Made by a program: the position numbers and the translations under genes. The notes below the pieces were generated by a model. It ran no database searches and was not told the origin of the DNA. It was given only the letters and a program-made list of their open reading frames with translations. This document shows, in pieces, positions 23,921 through 33,883 of a stretch of DNA of 64,000 nt. This DNA comes from Parafannyhessea umbonata (GTDB taxonomy: Bacteria > Actinomycetota > Coriobacteriia > Coriobacteriales > Atopobiaceae): contig NZ_LT629759.1 of assembly GCF_900105025.1 (NCBI RefSeq), positions 186,001 through 250,000 on the forward strand, written 5' to 3'. Numbering within the stretch: the first letter of the stretch is position 1; each line of letters starts with the position of its first letter.

Positions 23921-24703
23921 CTACGAGTTGTAGCTGTGGAAGAACGCGCGCGTCTCGGGGTCGGTCGCGTTGTCCATCACGTCTGCCGGGGTGCCGTTCT
24001 CCGCGACCTTGCCGCGGCGCAGAAGCACGATGCGGTCCGCGGCCTTGTGCGCAAAGCTCATCTCGTGCGTGGCCATCAGGATCGTGGCGCCCTGGTCCTT
24101 CAGCTCGGACACCATCTCGAGCACCTCGCCCACCAGCATGGGGTCGAGCGCGGAGGTGACTTCGTCCAGAAGCAGCAGCTCGGGGTCGCCCATCAGAGCA
24201 CGGCAGATGGCGACGCGCTGCTGCTGGCCGCCGGAAAGGCGGTCCGGGTACTCGCGGGCCTTCTGGTCCATGCCGATGCGCTTCAAGAGGGCCATGGCCT
24301 TCTCCTCCGCGTCCGCGCGGTTCCACTTGAACACCTTGCGCGCGGCGAGCGTCACGTTGTTGAGGACGGTCATGTGCGGGAAGAGGTTGAACTGCTGAAA
24401 CACCACGCCAATGCGCTTGCGGCACTCGTCCTGGTTGATGCGGGGGTCCGTTATGTCGGTCTCGCCGAGCCAGATCTGGCCGTCGTTCACGCGCTCCAGC
24501 ATGTTGACGCACTTCATGAGCGTGGACTTGCCCGAGCCGGACGGCCCCAAAAGCGCGACCACCTCGTGCTTGTTCACGTCGAACGAGATGTGGTCGAGCA
24601 CCACGTTGTCGCCAAAGCGCTTCACCACGTTGTCGATGCGCAGGACCTTCTGCGGCGCGCCACCCTGGGTGGCCGCGGTTCCCTCGTGTGCGATGTCTGG
24701 CAT
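23921..24703 (-). CDS. Polar amino-acid ABC transporter ATPase
   Basis: A 260-residue ATPase with Walker A GPSGSGKST (residues 53-61), the LSGGQQQR signature, and Walker B LLLLDEVTSALD. The segment VFQQFNLFPHMTVLNNV is diagnostic of the GlnQ/HisP amino-acid importer group. It powers uptake with the permease and binding protein encoded next to it. The start overlaps the permease stop as TAATG, so translation is coupled. The N-terminal 20 residues before the ABC fold are an unusual hydrophilic extension. The amino acid transported cannot be told from the sequence. Confidence 0.95.
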   Translation of the reverse strand: MPDIAHEGTAATQGGAPQKVLRIDNVVKRFGDNVVLDHISFDVNKHEVVALLGPSGSGKSTLMKCVNMLERVNDGQIWLGETDITDPRINQDECRKRIGVVFQQFNLFPHMTVLNNVTLAARKVFKWNRADAEEKAMALLKRIGMDQKAREYPDRLSGGQQQRVAICRALMGDPELLLLDEVTSALDPMLVGEVLEMVSELKDQGATILMATHEMSFAHKAADRIVLLRRGKVAENGTPADVMDNATDPETRAFFHSYNS

Positions 24704-25560
24704 TAGACCATGCCTCCCGTCTGCTCGCGGCGGCGCAGCTTTGCGGAGTACCAGTCGTTCAGCAGGATGAACGGCACGCTCAGCAGGATGAAGAGCACGC
24801 TTGCGACCACGTACGGCGTGAAGTTGTACGTCTTGGCAACCATGATCTGGGCGGCGCGCACGGCGTCGACGGCGCCCAGGGTCGAGATCAGGCCCACGTC
24901 CTTCTGCATCGATATGAAGTCGTTCATCAGGGCGGGAGCGATCTTGCGCAGCGCCTGCGGAATGATCACCAGGCGCATGGTCTGGCCGGACGTGAGTCCC
25001 AGCGAGCGCGCGGAAGCACGCTGCGACGGGTGCACGTCCTGGAAGCCGGCGCGCAGCACCTCCGCGATGTAGGCGGAGTACGACATGATGATGGCGACGG
25101 TACCCAGGATGGCCGGGTCTATGCGGCCAAAGATCCCCAGGCCCGGGATGCCAAAGCCAATCAGGTACAGCACGACCAGCATGGGGATGCCGCGCATGAT
25201 GGTGGTGTACAGCCGCGCGACCACGCGCAGCGGAAACATGACCGCGGACGTGGTGATGCGGCACAGCGCCAGCGCCGTGCCCAGGATGGCGACGCCGATG
25301 ACGGCGACCACCAGCACGCGCAGGTTCAGCAGCAGCCCGTCAAGCACCTGCGGCCACGCCTGCGCAAAGTACTCGGGCGAGAAGAACGACTGCTGTACTC
25401 GAGGCCAGCCCGGGGAGTTTGAAAGTCCAAACGCCACGAGGCCCACGAGCACGAGGGACGAAACGACGCTCGTGAGGTGCGAGCGTACGTTCTGCTTCCT
25501 GCGGTACTCCTCGCGTTCCAGCTCGACGTTGCTCACGGCGTCCTTGGAAGAGCCAGACAT
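24703..25560 (-). CDS. Polar amino-acid ABC transporter permease
   Basis: A 285-residue membrane protein of the HisMQ type. A hydrophilic N-terminus (about 25 residues) precedes five or six membrane segments. The cytoplasmic EAA loop is ASARSLGLTSGQTMRLVIIPQALR, which docks onto the ATPase. GLLLNLRVLVVAVIGVAIL starts the permease fold proper. It is the single permease gene, so it probably forms a homodimer. Upstream, a terminator separates it from the binding-protein gene; downstream, the ATPase gene overlaps it. Confidence 0.93.
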   Translation of the reverse strand: MSGSSKDAVSNVELEREEYRRKQNVRSHLTSVVSSLVLVGLVAFGLSNSPGWPRVQQSFFSPEYFAQAWPQVLDGLLLNLRVLVVAVIGVAILGTALALCRITTSAVMFPLRVVARLYTTIMRGIPMLVVLYLIGFGIPGLGIFGRIDPAILGTVAIIMSYSAYIAEVLRAGFQDVHPSQRASARSLGLTSGQTMRLVIIPQALRKIAPALMNDFISMQKDVGLISTLGAVDAVRAAQIMVAKTYNFTPYVVASVLFILLSVPFILLNDWYSAKLRRREQTGGMV

Positions 25561-25655: not shown

Positions 25656-26549
25656 CTACTTCTTCAGCGTGGGGATGTCCGTCGTGTACTCTGCAAGCCA
25701 CTTGTCCTGCAGCTTCTTGACCGTGCCGTCCTTGGTGAGGGCGTCCATGGCCTTCTTCACGTACTTCGTGAGCGGGGAGTTCTTCGCCAGGGTGATGCCC
25801 AGGCCCTCCTTGTCCTCGGTGCCGGGGATCTGGCCCACCACAAGGCCGTCGTCGATCTGCTTGGACTGGACCATGTACACGGCCTGCGGCGTGTCGGTCA
25901 CCAGCGCGTCGCACTGGCCGGAGGTCACGGCCTGCGCCGCGGCGGAGTTGTCGTCGAAGATGCTGATGCCCTTGTCCTTACCACCCTTGATGATGTCCTT
26001 CACGTAGTCGTACGCGGTGGTGCCCACCATCACGGCGATGTTGGCGTCCGCAAGGTCGGAGCACTTCGTGGCGCTGGCGTACTTGCTGCTCTTCTGCAGG
26101 ACGACGGCCTGAGTCGGGCGGAAGTACGCGGGCGAGAAGTCCACGGCCTTCTTGCGGTCGGAGTTGATGGACACCTGCTGGATGTTCAGGTCCCAGTCGT
26201 GCTCGCCGGGGGCGTATGCCTCGTCAAACGTGGTGCGTACCCACTTGACGTCCTTCTTCGCGAAGCCCATCTCGTCTGCGAGCGCGTAGACGAGGGCGGC
26301 CTCGAAGCCCTTGCCGGTCTGGGGCTTGTCGTCGATCACCCACGGGGTGTAGGCGGGGTTGCCGGTCGCGACGGTCAGCTTGCCCTCGGTGTGGGTCAGG
26401 CTCTTCACGCCGCCGCTCTTCTTGCTGGAGCTGCCGGAGTCACTCGAGCTGGACGATCCGCAGGCCGCGAGGCCCAGCGTGGCAAACGCGGAGGCTCCCA
26501 GTGCGATGGCCTGGCGCCTGCTGATGGCGGTATCGGTGATGGACTTCAT
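25656..26549 (-). CDS. Amino-acid ABC transporter substrate-binding lipoprotein
   Basis: A 297-residue binding protein. The signal peptide SRRQAIALGASAFATLGLAAC carries a lipobox (Cys30) and a twin-arginine pair (R11 R12), so Tat export is possible. A Ser-rich linker follows, then the two-lobed SBP fold: GKLTVATGNPAYTPWVI, KGFEAALVYALADEMGF and DWDLNIQQVSINSDRKKAVDFS, as in polar amino-acid binders. The ATG at 26549 has AAAGGAACAG upstream; the longer frame is discounted. It captures substrate outside the cell for the downstream permease/ATPase. Confidence 0.92.
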   Translation of the reverse strand: MKSITDTAISRRQAIALGASAFATLGLAACGSSSSSDSGSSSKKSGGVKSLTHTEGKLTVATGNPAYTPWVIDDKPQTGKGFEAALVYALADEMGFAKKDVKWVRTTFDEAYAPGEHDWDLNIQQVSINSDRKKAVDFSPAYFRPTQAVVLQKSSKYASATKCSDLADANIAVMVGTTAYDYVKDIIKGGKDKGISIFDDNSAAAQAVTSGQCDALVTDTPQAVYMVQSKQIDDGLVVGQIPGTEDKEGLGITLAKNSPLTKYVKKAMDALTKDGTVKKLQDKWLAEYTTDIPTLKK

Positions 26550-26859
26550 CGCTGTTCCTTTCACGCGTCCCCAAAGGGGGAGGCTCTTCTCATGCGTACG
26601 CCCCCACACTAGCAAATGGCGGATTACGGGCCGTGCAATGGCATATAAAACTCGGCATCTTGTTACGCAATGTTGTTATTTCGGGCCTCCTCCAGACTGC
26701 ATGGTGACGTGCCGTGCGTCTTGGCTTCGCACCGTCCGCCTTGGCGCCGCCCTTGGCTATACTTGCAGAGTCACATTGCAAGAGCCGCATCGCAATCCCA
26801 TTGGGGCAAACGCCATCGCAGCGCCCGGCGGCGTCCGGGCACATCGTCAGGGGGTTTAC
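26550..26859. other. Intergenic region between divergent genes
   Basis: No gene is seen. A short CCCC-AAA-GGGG inverted repeat (26569-26579) lies in the leader of the binding protein. A TATACT at 26758-26763 could be the -10 box for the nucleosidase gene. An AT-rich patch near 26640-26680 probably contains the promoter of the binding protein. Confidence 0.4.
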
Positions 26860-27645
26860 ATGGTCAAGACCGTCGCCGTGCTCAGCGCGCTTCGCAAGGA
26901 GTCGCTCGCGTTCTTCGAGCTTGGGGGAGAAGAGCCGCGCCGTCGCTGCGGCGTGGAGCTTGCGCGCCGATCCGTCGCGGGCCTCGACGTCGTGGCCGCT
27001 GCCGGCGGCATGGGCACCATCAACGCGGCGGCCTCCGCCCAGCTGCTCATCGATGCGTGCCGGCCGGACGTCCTGCTGTTTTGCGGCATCGCAGGGAGCC
27101 TCAACCCCAGGATCGGCCAGGGAGACGTGGTCGTGGGCGAGCGTCTGGAGTGCCTCGAGGCGGACATGGACATCATCGCGGAGTCAGAGCCTCACCTCAC
27201 GTCGTTTCCCTCCGACGCGCGGCTCGTGCGCCTGGCGAAGGAGGAGCTGGAGGCGCGGTCGTTCGAGCGCGTGGACAACGTGCGCGAGTCCGGCTCTGAC
27301 GCGAGCGCTTCTAAGTACGGCACGCTTGCGCCGCACGCGCCGCGCTACGTGTGCGGCGCCATCGCGACGAGCGACCTCTTCAGCACGGCGCCCGATGTGC
27401 TGCGCGAGGTGCGCGGCCGCTATGCCGCGGACTGCGAGGAGATGGAGGGCGTGGCGGCGGCCCAGGTGGCAGCACGTGCCGGCGTGCCGTTCCTTGCGAT
27501 CCGCTCCATCAGCAACGTGTGCGGCGAGCCGTACGAGGAGCTGGACGGCCGCGAGGCGGACCTCGTGGCGACGGCACGCCTTGCCGCGGACGTGACCATG
27601 GGCGTCATCGCGAGACTTGCGGCGGAGGGACTCGACTCGCGGTAA
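26860..27645 (+). CDS. Purine nucleosidase, MTA/SAH nucleosidase or futalosine hydrolase-like
   Basis: A 261-residue protein of the PNP/UDP family. AAGGMGTINAAASAQLLID and FCGIAGSLNPRIGQGDVVV are the ribose-binding parts, and CEEMEGVAAAQVA is the conserved ribose-contacting Glu motif. The catalytic Asp of MTA/SAH nucleosidases (IRxxSD) is Asn here, in AIRSISNVCG, as in enzymes acting on 6-oxopurines such as futalosine hydrolase. It may therefore cleave futalosine or an inosine nucleoside. An insertion of about 30 residues lies in the middle. The ATG 26860 follows CAGGGGG. A canonical paralogue lies at 33185. Confidence 0.78.
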   Translation: MVKTVAVLSALRKESLAFFELGGEEPRRRCGVELARRSVAGLDVVAAAGGMGTINAAASAQLLIDACRPDVLLFCGIAGSLNPRIGQGDVVVGERLECLEADMDIIAESEPHLTSFPSDARLVRLAKEELEARSFERVDNVRESGSDASASKYGTLAPHAPRYVCGAIATSDLFSTAPDVLREVRGRYAADCEEMEGVAAAQVAARAGVPFLAIRSISNVCGEPYEELDGREADLVATARLAADVTMGVIARLAAEGLDSR

Positions 27646-29129: not shown

Positions 29130-29648
29130 TTAGCGGTCTTCCAGCCTGAAACCCGCGTACACGAAGCCCGGGCTCACGACGCATGACACGAGGGCGTCCT
29201 CGCCTGAGGGGACGGTGCGCTGCCACACGCCGGCGGGGACCACGAGCTGCGTGAGGGCTCCGTCCTGGTCCACGCGCAGCGTAGTGGCCCTAAGCTGGGC
29301 GGGGTCCGGCGCCGCGCCCGAGCCGGCGAGCTCGATGGTGACGGCGCCGGGGCCGTGCCAGAGCCAGAGCTCGTCCGCGTCGACGACGTGCCAGTCGCTG
29401 GAGTCGCCGGCGGGCAGCAGGAAGTAGATGAGCGAGGCCAGCGGGCGCGCGGATGTGGAGTTCTCCGAGAGGTCCGCGGCGCCGGCGACGTTGGCAGCGG
29501 CTGCTGGCGCGTCGTCGGCGGGCGTGCCGGTTGGTGCCGCGATGGGAGACTGCCACGTGCGGCGGTACCAGCCGCCTTCCGGGTGTGGTGCCAGGTCCAG
29601 TGCGTCGATCAGGCGCTGGGCGTACGGGCTAACTCCAGATGCGGTCAT
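29130..29648 (-). CDS. Cupin, DUF985 family
   Basis: A 172-residue cupin of the DUF985 group. The family signature is LAPHPEGGWYRRTWQS at residues 18-33, then SLIYFLLPAGDSSDWHVVDADELWLWH and VVPAGVWQRTVP. A metal site is possible (His in DWHVV and LWH). The molecular function is unknown; relatives are thought to bind sugars or act as epimerase-like enzymes. A Pro/Ala-rich insertion lies between the first strands. The start overlaps the upstream amidohydrolase gene by 20 bases, so both come from one transcript. Confidence 0.83.
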   Translation of the reverse strand: MTASGVSPYAQRLIDALDLAPHPEGGWYRRTWQSPIAAPTGTPADDAPAAAANVAGAADLSENSTSARPLASLIYFLLPAGDSSDWHVVDADELWLWHGPGAVTIELAGSGAAPDPAQLRATTLRVDQDGALTQLVVPAGVWQRTVPSGEDALVSCVVSPGFVYAGFRLEDR

Positions 29649-30960
29649 ATGCGAGCCTTCCCTCGATGACGGTGGCGCGGCAGGTGCCGGAGCCGTGGCG
29701 GACGAAGCGCTCCAGCGTGTCCTCGAGCGCCTGAGGCGACGTGACGTCGACCGGTACGTCGAAGAACGCGAGGTCGGCGGATGCGCCGACGTTTATCTGG
29801 CCGATGCGCTTGGGACCGCAGTTGAGGCCCATGGCCTCCGCGCCGCCGAGCGTCATCATCCTGATGAGGCGGTGCGAGAGGTCGAGCTCCTCGTAGCCCT
29901 GGCTGATGGCGAGGTCGTACAGGAACGCGACGTCGTCCAGGACGTCGAGGCTCGGGCTCGAGGAGAGAGAGTCCGTGCCGACGGAGAGGGGGTTGCCCTC
30001 CTCGAGGTAGCGCGCGATGGGGGCGTCCGCCTCCGTGCAGGTGATGCGGTTGGAGCGCGGGCAGAGCGCGACCGAGACGCCCCTCTGGCGCAGGATCCTG
30101 CGATCTTCTCGCGATGCGTGCACGCCGTGTGCGATGTGGACGTCCGGCCCGAGGACGGCGAGCTGGTCGAGAAACTGGATGGCGCTTGCGCCGGCGCCAG
30201 CGCGCTTGAGGTCGTTGAAGCTCTGCCACTCCGTGCGGTTCCACGCCCACGACGTCTGGTTGGTGAGGCGCGACGGCAGTTTGCCCGCCTCGGCCGGGGT
30301 CTCGCCCAGGTGGATGTGGAGTCTCATGCCCAGCTGGCGCGCGATGTCCGGCAGGTCGAGCAGCGGGCCGGAGCCAAGCGAGTACGGCGCGTGCGGGCTG
30401 ATGCCAAGCTCTGTCACGCCCATGGCGCGGATGGCGCGGATCTGGTCTAGCAGGTCTTCCGGACCCTTGCGCCGCCAGTCCTCGTTGTTCCAGTCCATAA
30501 CCTCCCAGTAGGCGATGCCGTGCATGCCCTGGGACGCGAGCGCGTCGGCCGCCTCCACGTCTGACACGATGTCCGCCGCGGCCGTGGTACCGGCCTCCAC
30601 CATCTGGCGCGCGCCGTCGTGCGCCCACTGGCGCCACGGCTTGGGCTCCGGGCTGTCGTATATCTTGTTGAACGCGAGCTCCCAGTCGCGAAAGCTCGCG
30701 TACGTGCGCGAGCCGACGGACGCCATGCCGGTGTACTGCAGGTGGGTGTGGGCGTTCACCAGGCCGGGCGTGACGAGGCCGCCCCAGCGGCGGAGCTCCA
30801 CCTGCGAGCGGTCGTCCACGTCCTCCGCGAGCTTCTGCCGCACCCAGTCGCGCGTGCCCACGTGCAGGACGCGGCCGTCGCGCACCGCGACGGCGCCGTC
30901 GCAGATGACGGGGCCGGTGACGGGAATCACCAGCGGGGCTTCGTACAGGGTGACGCTCAT
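29629..30960 (-). CDS. Amidohydrolase of the MTA/SAH or aminofutalosine deaminase group
   Basis: A 443-residue metal-dependent deaminase of the ATZ/TRZ family. Metal ligands are in NAHTHLQYTG, HIHLGE, IAHGVH and GTDSLSS. The fold and motifs match adenosine-type deaminases that act on S-adenosylhomocysteine, methylthioadenosine or aminofutalosine. Its start overlaps the stop of the AhcY-like gene as ATGA, so the two are translated together; this suggests that one handles the deaminated product of the other. The cupin overlaps its 3' end. The exact substrate is not decided by the sequence. Confidence 0.83.
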   Translation of the reverse strand: MSVTLYEAPLVIPVTGPVICDGAVAVRDGRVLHVGTRDWVRQKLAEDVDDRSQVELRRWGGLVTPGLVNAHTHLQYTGMASVGSRTYASFRDWELAFNKIYDSPEPKPWRQWAHDGARQMVEAGTTAAADIVSDVEAADALASQGMHGIAYWEVMDWNNEDWRRKGPEDLLDQIRAIRAMGVTELGISPHAPYSLGSGPLLDLPDIARQLGMRLHIHLGETPAEAGKLPSRLTNQTSWAWNRTEWQSFNDLKRAGAGASAIQFLDQLAVLGPDVHIAHGVHASREDRRILRQRGVSVALCPRSNRITCTEADAPIARYLEEGNPLSVGTDSLSSSPSLDVLDDVAFLYDLAISQGYEELDLSHRLIRMMTLGGAEAMGLNCGPKRIGQINVGASADLAFFDVPVDVTSPQALEDTLERFVRHGSGTCRATVIEGRLAYDRIWS

Positions 30961-32522
30961 GCGTGCCTCTTCCGGTTTGTTGGGGCGGGGGTGGTGCCGG
31001 CGGTGTCGGCGTAGCGGGTGACGCGCCAGTCCGGCACGAAGGTGGGGGTGGACGGCGCGCTCTCCGTGCGGATGCCGCGCGTCTCGAGCGCGATGGATGC
31101 GATGCGGCGGTCTACCTCGGGACCCAGCCGCAGCACCTTTGCGGGAAGCGACCCCGCGTGGCGCAGCAGATGCTCCACGGCGGCGAGCTGCACGGCGAAG
31201 CTCAGGTCCATGATCTCGATGGGGTTGCCCGGGCCGGCGGCGTAGTTCACGCCGTCCCCGGACGCGAGCAGCCTGAGCGTGGGCCCCTGGGGCACGTCCA
31301 GCCACGAGACGCCGTCCTTCTCGCCCGGGCGCAGGGTACCGCCCTGGGAAAGCACCTGGTCAAGGGCCACCTCGTTTGCGATGCCGCCGATGACTGCGAC
31401 GGTGGCGCCGTCTGGCAGCAGGCGGAGAGCGTCTGCGGGGAGCGTGTGGCGCACGCCCGTGGCCGAGACCGCCATGTCCGTGGCGGGAAGCGCGCTGTCG
31501 AGCGGCGCGACCGCGAAGCCGGCGAAGCTCGCCTCAAGCGCGCGGACGGGGTCCGCCTCCGCCACGGTCACGCGCGCGCCCAGCGCCCGCACGCGACGGG
31601 CGAAGCCCTCGCCAACGGGGCCAAAGCCCACCACGGTGACGCGTGCCCCACCGGCGGCGGAGAAGAACGACGGTCCTACGAGGGACATCGTCGTGGCGGC
31701 GCAGGTCTCTCCCGTGCCGTGGCGGTTGTCGAAGCCGGTCTTCAGGCGGGAGTCGTTGACCGCCACGACGGGGAACGGCAGCTCGCCTTCCTGCTGCATG
31801 GCCGTGAACGCGCGGACGCCGGAGGTGGTCTCCTCCGCGACGCCCACGAGCCTCGCCGCCAGGGTCGGGCGCTCCATCACCATGAGGCGCGAGAAGTTCG
31901 CGCCGTCGTCGATGACGACGTCGGGCCGTATGCGGTCCATGAGGCGGAGCGACCCCTCGCGCTCCTGCGCGGGCGTCCACGTGGCGTCCGCCTCTATGGC
32001 GTAGCCGCGGGCGCGGATCTGGTTGGCGATGGCCTGGTCGCATTCGTGCGCGTGGCAGTACACGCCCACGGTGGCACCGGCCGCGGCAAGGCGCTCCACG
32101 AGGACGGCCGTCTTTGGCTCCACGATGAGGCTGAGCGCGATGTGGACGCCGCGAAGCAGGTCTTCCGCCGCGATCCGGCGTGCGAGCTCCGCCGAGACGG
32201 GCATGCCCCTCTCGGCGCGCGCCCAGGCGTCAGCCGCGGAAAGGTCCTTGCGTTTGGGCAGGTCGGGGTAGGTAAAATCCGCCTGTGCGGCATCGTTCGT
32301 AGGGACGAGGCCCCACTCCGCCATGCGCAGGGCAAGCACCCCGCCTTCGCGCGCGAGGTCCTGCGCGTCCACGAGCACGCGCGAGCCCGCAAGCGATGAG
32401 TTTGTGGCCTGCGCCCACGCGCAGGCCCAGTGTGCGAAGGTGTCCGTGGTTCCTCCCGGGTCGCATTGCGGCGCGTCCTTGCGGCGCGTCCTTGCGGCGC
32501 GCGCCGACCGTCGTGGAAACAT
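30957..32522 (-). CDS. Divergent adenosylhomocysteinase-like protein
   Basis: Up to 521 residues. AhcY-family landmarks are EETTSGV, NDSRLKTGFDN (Lys and Asp of the active site) and the NAD loop GFGPVGEG. However, the adenine-contacting LHMT motif is replaced (LIVEPKTAVL), the active-site Cys after FDN is changed (NRHGTGE), and the NIGHFD His is missing (IGGIANEV). So it binds NAD but probably acts on another nucleoside, for instance S-inosylhomocysteine. The start is uncertain: the frame is open to 32522, with ATG 32324 a shorter option, and neither has a strong ribosome-binding site. The gene is coupled to a deaminase. Confidence 0.7.
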   Translation of the reverse strand: MFPRRSARAARTRRKDAPQCDPGGTTDTFAHWACAWAQATNSSLAGSRVLVDAQDLAREGGVLALRMAEWGLVPTNDAAQADFTYPDLPKRKDLSAADAWARAERGMPVSAELARRIAAEDLLRGVHIALSLIVEPKTAVLVERLAAAGATVGVYCHAHECDQAIANQIRARGYAIEADATWTPAQEREGSLRLMDRIRPDVVIDDGANFSRLMVMERPTLAARLVGVAEETTSGVRAFTAMQQEGELPFPVVAVNDSRLKTGFDNRHGTGETCAATTMSLVGPSFFSAAGGARVTVVGFGPVGEGFARRVRALGARVTVAEADPVRALEASFAGFAVAPLDSALPATDMAVSATGVRHTLPADALRLLPDGATVAVIGGIANEVALDQVLSQGGTLRPGEKDGVSWLDVPQGPTLRLLASGDGVNYAAGPGNPIEIMDLSFAVQLAAVEHLLRHAGSLPAKVLRLGPEVDRRIASIALETRGIRTESAPSTPTFVPDWRVTRYADTAGTTPAPTNRKRHA

Positions 32523-32688: not shown

Positions 32689-33180
32689 ATGGAGCAGATC
32701 GCAAGCTTCACCATCGACCACCTTCGCCTGGAGCCCGGCGTCTACGTGAGCCGCGTCGACCGCGACCCGGCGTCCGGTGCCGTCATCACCACCTTCGACC
32801 TGCGCCTGACCGCACCCAACCGCGAGCCGGTCATGGACACGGCCGCCGTGCACGCCATCGAGCACCTGCTGGCCACGTTCCTGCGCAACGACGAGGAGTG
32901 GGCGAGCCGCATCGTGTACTTTGGGCCCATGGGCTGCCGCACCGGCTTCTATCTCATCGTGTTTGGCGAGTGCACGCCCAAGGAGGTGCTGCCGCTGGTC
33001 ACGCGCGCCTTCGAGTTTGCCCGCGACTTCGAGGGAGAGATTCCCGGCGCAAAGCCGGCGGAGTGCGGCAACTGGCACGACGCGGACCTGAACCAGGCGC
33101 ACTGGTGGGCCAGGCGCTACCTGGACAACACGCTGTACGCGATCGACGACGCGCACATGACCTACCCCGGCGCGGAGTAG
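32689..33180 (+). CDS. luxS: S-ribosylhomocysteine lyase LuxS
   Basis: A 163-residue iron/zinc enzyme that splits S-ribosylhomocysteine into homocysteine and DPD, the precursor of autoinducer 2. HAIEH (H55, E58, H59) and the Cys of ECGNW form the metal site; C83 in PMGCRTGFYL is the catalytic Cys. The ATG at 32689 has AGGAG upstream. Pfs follows after four bases, giving the complete two-step SAH recycling route. Together with metH and metF in this window it closes the methyl cycle. Confidence 0.95.
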   Translation: MEQIASFTIDHLRLEPGVYVSRVDRDPASGAVITTFDLRLTAPNREPVMDTAAVHAIEHLLATFLRNDEEWASRIVYFGPMGCRTGFYLIVFGECTPKEVLPLVTRAFEFARDFEGEIPGAKPAECGNWHDADLNQAHWWARRYLDNTLYAIDDAHMTYPGAE

Positions 33181-33184
33181 GCGC

Positions 33185-33883
33185 GTGGCGCTGGGAATCA
33201 TTGGCGCGATGGACGTCGAGGTGGAGCTGCTGAGGGCCCACCTCGACGGCGTGCGCGTGACGTGCGTGGGCGGCATGGAGTTTAGCGAGGGCCGCCTGGG
33301 CGGTACGGACGCGATCGTGGTGCGTTGCGGCGTGGGCAGCATCAACGCCGCCATGTGCGCGCAGACGCTCGCCGTGCGCTTTGGGGCGGACCGCGTGGTG
33401 AACACGGGCGTGGCCGGCTCGCTGAACGCGCGCGTGGGCATAGGCGACGTGGTGGTCTCAACGGACGCAGTCAACTACGACATGGACGTGCAGAACCTGG
33501 GCTACCGGCCCGGCCAGTGTCCGGGCATGGACACGCTTGCGTTTGCGGCGGACCCGACGCTGCGCCAGGTCGCCGTTTGCGCGGCGCGCGCCGTAGCGCC
33601 GGAGGCGGGCGTGTTCGAGGGGCGCGTGGCCTCAGGCGACAAGTTCGTGCACGAGGACGCCATGCGCCGGTGGATCGTTGAGGAGTTTGGCGCGCTGTGC
33701 TGCGAGATGGAGGGTGCCGCCATCGCGCAGGCGTGCCACGTGAACGACATCCCGTTCGCGATCGTGCGCACCATATCCGACGAGGCGAACGGAGCCTCCG
33801 CCACGGACTACCCGGCGTTCGAGCGCAAGATGGCCCTGCGCTGCGCGGCGATCGTGGAGCGCATGGCCGCCGGCTTGGCGTAG
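33185..33883 (+). CDS. mtnN: 5'-methylthioadenosine/S-adenosylhomocysteine nucleosidase
   Basis: A 232-residue nucleosidase (Pfs). LGIIGAMDVEVELL at the start, GVGSINAAMCAQTL, VNTGVAGSLNARVGIGDVV, the conserved Glu motif in CCEMEGAAIAQ, and the catalytic Asp in VRTISDEA are all present. It removes adenine from SAH and methylthioadenosine, feeding LuxS. GTG 33185 is the start, four bases after the luxS stop. Unlike the paralogue at 26860 it has the normal Asp, so it is the housekeeping enzyme. Confidence 0.95.
   Translation: MALGIIGAMDVEVELLRAHLDGVRVTCVGGMEFSEGRLGGTDAIVVRCGVGSINAAMCAQTLAVRFGADRVVNTGVAGSLNARVGIGDVVVSTDAVNYDMDVQNLGYRPGQCPGMDTLAFAADPTLRQVAVCAARAVAPEAGVFEGRVASGDKFVHEDAMRRWIVEEFGALCCEMEGAAIAQACHVNDIPFAIVRTISDEANGASATDYPAFERKMALRCAAIVERMAAGLA

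Follow-up and report, generated by a model that had tools for sequence, protein, structure and literature searches.

A conserved bacterial operon coupling a histidine-less SAH hydrolase-fold protein to a predicted deaminase: a candidate system for nucleoside uptake and salvage

RESULTS

Genes at the locus

The window, i.e. the whole stretch of DNA analysed, comprises 64,000 nucleotides of the Parafannyhessea umbonata genome (contig NZ_LT629759.1, positions 186,001 to 250,000). Its genes of interest encode an AhcY-like protein, an amidohydrolase (AmH), a cupin and an ABC importer (Table 1); two plus-strand genes, for a DUF4143 ATPase and for the Pfs-like nucleosidase Nuc2, separate the cupin from the importer. 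An earlier note on this DNA had described a coupled pair in which the start of AmH overlaps the stop of the AhcY-like gene as ATGA, and this is what the junction, CACGCATGAGC, shows: the ATG of AmH lies over the TGA stop codon of the AhcY-like frame. The same note placed LuxS and Pfs next door on the opposite strand, where we also find them. Counted from its first ATG, the AhcY-like frame has 521 amino acids; the true start is uncertain, since homology begins at about residue 28. A search of seven loci with Rfam gave no riboswitch near the operon, and a scan of upstream regions for McbR-, SahR- and MetR-like sites and for shared palindromes gave nothing above chance.

Table 1. Genes of the locus, with positions in the window
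Feature	Position	Strand	Family or model match
AhcY-like protein, histidine-less SAH/SIH-hydrolase subfamily, with an N-terminal extension of ~80 residues	30957..32522	-	PF05221/PF00670, NF004009
Amidohydrolase (AmH), predicted adenine-nucleoside deaminase	29629..30960	-	PF01979
Cupin_5 (DUF985) protein; start overlaps AmH stop	29130..29648	-	PF06172
Nuc2, Pfs-like nucleosidase; start approximate	26842..27645	+	PF01048
Substrate-binding lipoprotein of amino-acid-type ABC importer	25656..26549	-	PF00497
Permease of the same importer	24703..25557	-	PF00528
ATPase of the same importer	23921..24730	-	PF00005
LuxS, divergent neighbour, housekeeping SAH route	32689..33180	+	PF02664
Pfs, MTA/SAH nucleosidase, normal Asp	33185..33883	+	NF004079 (227 bits; cut-off 169)

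Conservation of the operon

We collected 83 loci by similarity to the AhcY-like protein; many of them are from Bifidobacterium and are therefore not independent samples. The taxonomic spread is wide: Atopobiaceae, Bifidobacteriaceae, Microbacteriaceae, Mycobacteriaceae, Nocardia, Schaalia, Xylanimonas and bins assigned to Clostridiales. At every one of the 83 loci an amidohydrolase gene follows the AhcY-like gene on the same strand. It is the next gene, at a distance of at most 350 nt, in 73, and in the other 10 (from Cryobacterium, Rathayibacter, mycobacteria and Nocardia) about 3 kb of ECF importer genes lie between the two. A DUF985 cupin is present at 74 of the 83 loci and an importer at 77 (67 ABC importers of the amino-acid type and the 10 ECF importers); four of the six loci devoid of an importer are on short contigs or close to contig ends. 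A survey of 60 related genomes gave a concordant picture: the AhcY-like protein (at least 50% identity) occurs in its own genome and in six others, and the amidohydrolase (at least 66%) is adjacent to it in those seven genomes and absent from all the others. Such co-occurrence, together with the one-strand linkage at all the loci, places the pairing far beyond chance. The linkage foreseen by the earlier note is thus borne out, with no instance of unlinking in relatives; what that note overlooked, by considering the pair only, is a larger conserved operon that includes the cupin and an importer. An importer in the operon suggests that the substrate comes from outside the cell, and speaks against housekeeping disposal of SAH. 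We found no description of this operon in the papers searched, the closest being the study of SIH hydrolases discussed below (PMC10978960).

Some features of individual operon members can be added. The ECF importer lying inside the operon (L127:11158-14226 and nine other loci) has an S component of the riboflavin type. The DUF985 cupin, encoded in the window at 29130-29648 (-), possibly acts on a keto-sugar product.

Residues, phylogeny and fold of the AhcY-like protein

Positions of the AhcY-like protein were mapped onto the enzymes of Thermotoga maritima and Pyrococcus furiosus and compared among relatives. The NAD loop (GxGxxG) and the Lys/Asp pair are kept, as the earlier note had it, human K186 and D190 corresponding to K261 and D265, and the active-site histidines are indeed replaced (H55 by I133, H301 by G380 and H353 by N433). 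That note also regarded the adenine-binding residues as lacking. This is right insofar as the HxTxE/Q motif is absent, but the site itself is not missing: it reads IxExK, and E-x-K is the signature of a hypoxanthine-type site. Enzymes with an HxExK motif prefer S-inosylhomocysteine (SIH) and those with HxTxE/Q prefer SAH; in the former, the Lys contacts O6 of inosine and the Glu contacts N1 (PMC10978960). E-x-K is found in 82 of 83 members in a first alignment and in 84 of 84 alignable rows in a later one, where the full base motif is [VIF]xExK; Glu and Lys are thus kept and the His is gone, being replaced by V, I or F (and once, in the 83-sequence alignment, by A). The equivalents of human D131, E156, T157, K186, D190 and N191 are invariant in all 83 sequences. 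Equally constant are the losses, the gate His being Gly in 83 of 83 sequences and the H353 equivalent being Asn in every member.

Comparison with the traits of SIH hydrolases therefore gives a mixed result. The family has the NAD domain with the Lys/Asp pair for 3′-oxidation; the HxExK motif has lost its His, the His-Phe molecular gate has Gly in place of His and, in the IQ-TREE phylogeny, the family forms a clade of its own (support 100/100) beside the HxExK grade and not among its enzymes. The 37 HxTxE/Q enzymes all fall into one group apart from this clade, so that the protein lies outside the canonical SAH hydrolases, in agreement with the earlier proposal. The motif His is described as important for catalysis and the gate His as shielding unstable 3′-keto intermediates (PMC10978960); the missing histidines suggest that the substrate or the chemistry may differ from those of SIH hydrolase. 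From the E-x-K signature we infer that the family prefers a 6-oxopurine base. The AlphaFold2 model (pLDDT 93.6) has as its best PDB match 3x2f, the T. maritima SAHH (TM 0.92 by target), followed by the P. furiosus SAHH with inosine.

A canonical adenosylhomocysteinase was considered as a candidate and ruled out, both by the absence of HxTxE/Q and of the three active-site histidines and by the tree. The protein nevertheless scores 526 bits against NCBIfam model NF004009, 'adenosylhomocysteinase' (PRK05476.3-2), above the curated cut-off of 485, i.e. the model already includes such sequences. By its name the model implies hydrolysis of SAH, but the residues of the AhcY-like protein give this no support, and we did not find an experimental basis for it. 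The operons covered by this plain adenosylhomocysteinase model, including those of bifidobacteria and Gardnerella, very likely do something else.

The amidohydrolase

AmH has the metal-binding and catalytic set of amidohydrolase deaminases (HxH, His, HxxE, His, Asp): among 30 sequences, H73, H190, H217, E220, H278 and D330 are invariant and H71 is nearly so. Among known folds its model matches MTA/SAH or adenosine deaminases best (TM ~0.75). AmH resembles the MTA/SAH deaminases (TM0936, 4f0r) in fold, metal site and the predicted deamination of a 5′-substituted adenosine, but its identity to them is only about 22-23%. Membership of the TM0936/DadD group of SAH deaminases was rejected: the match to TM0936 is worth about 63 bits, its best stretch covering the second half only, compared with 253 bits over the full length for the SAH deaminase-like protein of genome G030, from which AmH is grouped apart. 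Trp152/Glu153 of AmH are invariant and stand where TM0936 has an Arg; this Arg binds the carboxylate of SAH.

Nuc2 and the transporter

Nuc2 belongs by its family match, and by retention of both catalytic glutamates, with the futalosine hydrolases and MTA/SAH nucleosidases. It differs from them in lying beside the operon, outside any menaquinone pathway, and in having Asn for Asp197 of MTAN, a residue whose replacement in D197A leaves the enzyme inactive (PMC7203018). The Asn is present in all 19 distinct context-linked Nuc2 homologues that cover the position; Asp is found there in a distant match (26%) lying 9 kb away at locus L119 and, on a residue check, in the neighbouring Pfs. In calf and human PNP the Asn form (Asn243 in calf) takes inosine and guanosine, and N243D gains adenosine (PMC6274182). 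Should this Asn/Asp rule carry over, by analogy, to the Nuc2 family, Nuc2 would probably be a 6-oxopurine nucleosidase, for which the label 'MTA/SAH nucleosidase-like' would mislead. Deaminase, E-x-K enzyme and Asn nucleosidase all point to a deaminated (6-oxopurine) nucleoside.

Class-wide searches, made on a sample of genomes from the class, revealed a close transporter in few genomes. In G010, a genome with neither the divergent pair nor LuxS, its neighbours are a TM0936-like deaminase together with an HxExK hydrolase; in G030 and G291 it lies beside both pairs, i.e. AhcY-like/AmH and conventional SIH hydrolase/SAH deaminase; and in G032 it adjoins Nuc2, about 2 kb from LuxS. The transporter thus repeatedly meets alternative sets of enzymes leading from SAH to homocysteine, contexts that a plain importer of sulfur-containing amino acids would explain too. 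A more distant copy occurs in G087, G096 and G112 with none of these enzymes nearby. In the binding protein Arg132, of the carboxylate-binding type, is invariant (68 of 68 sequences). The Asp that binds the alpha-amino group is kept in just 48 of the 68, where invariance would be expected for an amino-acid ligand, so that the case for an amino-acid part of the substrate comes down to the invariant Arg and family membership.

Other SAH routes in the same genomes

Another SAH route exists in 29 of 30 genomes that carry the AhcY-like family: LuxS in 18, a full canonical SAHH in eight and an HxExK SIH hydrolase in three. In the remaining one, that of Aeriscardovia aeriphila (G063, locus L062), the divergent pair is present and none of the three was found. 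At loci L045 (G030) and L211 (G291), a conventional SIH hydrolase and a TM0936-like SAH deaminase adjoin the divergent pair. G030 and G291, like G010, are without LuxS, which the conventional hydrolase/deaminase pair therefore probably replaces.

DISCUSSION

Gene context and residues together give good support to an uptake-and-salvage operon in which a deaminase makes a 6-oxopurine nucleoside for a SAHH-fold enzyme lacking the active-site histidines. Which nucleoside is less clear: SAH, processed via SIH, is our best single guess. On that tentative reading, which takes the operon as one for salvage of an imported S-adenosyl amino acid, the ABC importer (or the ECF importer in some taxa) would bring the compound, most likely SAH, into the cell, where AmH would remove its 6-amino group, the product being SIH or a closely similar compound. 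With its bound NAD, the AhcY-like enzyme would then oxidise the 3′-OH and eliminate the 5′-thiol, yielding a 6-oxopurine nucleoside and homocysteine, and Nuc2, where present, may remove hypoxanthine from the former. The base preference has better support than three other elements of this scheme: the homocysteine moiety, import as the direction of transport, and the net reaction.

The salvage reading draws support from the constant linkage of the two genes, the importer at most loci, the conserved E-x-K, the complete metal site of AmH and its fold nearest to MTA/SAH or adenosine deaminases, the occurrence of the transporter beside SAH-type enzyme sets and the availability of other SAH routes. 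It is weakened by the replacement of three active-site histidines in every member, by the position of AmH outside the TM0936 clade, by the coexistence with an SIH hydrolase pair in two genomes, by the variable Asp of the binding protein and by the lone distant transporter copies. Of the route put forward in the earlier note, deamination of SAH followed by hydrolysis, the order (deamination first) and the inosyl-type cleavage agree with the E-x-K motif, the place of the clade beside the HxExK grade and the Asn of Nuc2; SIH as the substrate fares less well, on account of the lost histidines and of the conventional enzymes encoded beside the pair.

These same points make it possible, if somewhat doubtful, that the logic is as described (uptake, deamination and NAD-dependent cleavage of a 6-oxopurine nucleoside) and that the substrate carries a 5′ group other than that of SAH or SIH. 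With all three histidines replaced in every member, including that of the gate, the pocket must be different at its 5′ end; conventional enzymes for SIH and SAH are retained in G030 and G291; AmH has Trp152/Glu153 where TM0936 has Arg; and the S component of the ECF importer is of a riboflavin-transporter type. However, the transporter is shared with the SAH-type enzyme sets of G010 and G032, and no neighbouring gene indicates an alternative nucleoside. It is unlikely, though worth stating, that we are dealing with a new kind of SAHH-fold enzyme whose cycle of oxidation, elimination, hydration and reduction is incomplete: in the absence of the histidines and the gate, an oxidised 6-oxopurine nucleoside (3′-keto or 4′,5′-didehydro) would be kept or released, and the linked cupin or Nuc2 would process it.

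A housekeeping role in disposing of SAH made by the cell itself, on the pattern of Methanocaldococcus and Thermotoga, would account for the homology to SIH hydrolase and for the deaminase partner; we consider it very unlikely, because nearly all the genomes of the family already have LuxS, SAHH or SIH hydrolase, and the family is patchy and linked to an importer. The loss of catalytic histidines might also suggest a dead enzyme turned regulator or NAD sensor, controlling the deaminase in the manner of the mammalian AHCYL proteins. Such a protein would need neither the six invariant residues (the equivalents of K186, D190, D131, E156, T157 and N191) nor the E-x-K base contact, which makes this proposal highly improbable. 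There is hardly any chance that AmH is the aminofutalosine deaminase of menaquinone synthesis: it matches these deaminases over its full length, but the candidate was rejected on genome content, an MqnA-family protein being absent from seven of nine genomes checked and represented by weak matches in the other two, and the futalosine pathway has no place for an AhcY-like partner.

The nearest known system is the DadD and SIH hydrolase pathway of Methanocaldococcus and Thermotoga (PMC10978960), which likewise combines a deaminase with a SAHH-fold enzyme having E-x-K and the NAD machinery; in fold, the AhcY-like protein is closest to the SAHHs of T. maritima and P. furiosus. Unlike the SIH hydrolases of that pathway, the AhcY-like family is a separate clade devoid of the catalytic and gate histidines; AmH belongs to another subgroup of deaminases, and the operon adds a cupin and an importer and coexists with complete SAH routes. 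If SAH or a relative of it is imported and salvaged, then members of the microbiota would have a way to feed on by-products of methylation, and the deamination-first methyl cycle would no longer be confined to archaea and thermophiles. That the catalytic histidines are lost without exception also makes the family a direct test case for the mechanism of SAHH-fold enzymes.

At ECF-type loci where the AhcY-like protein lacks the N-terminal extension present in the window, its gene is overlapped at the start by a separate small Rossmann-like gene with a weak AdoHcyase_NAD match (L127:9132-9947 and upstream genes at other such loci); the extension may be what remains of a fusion.
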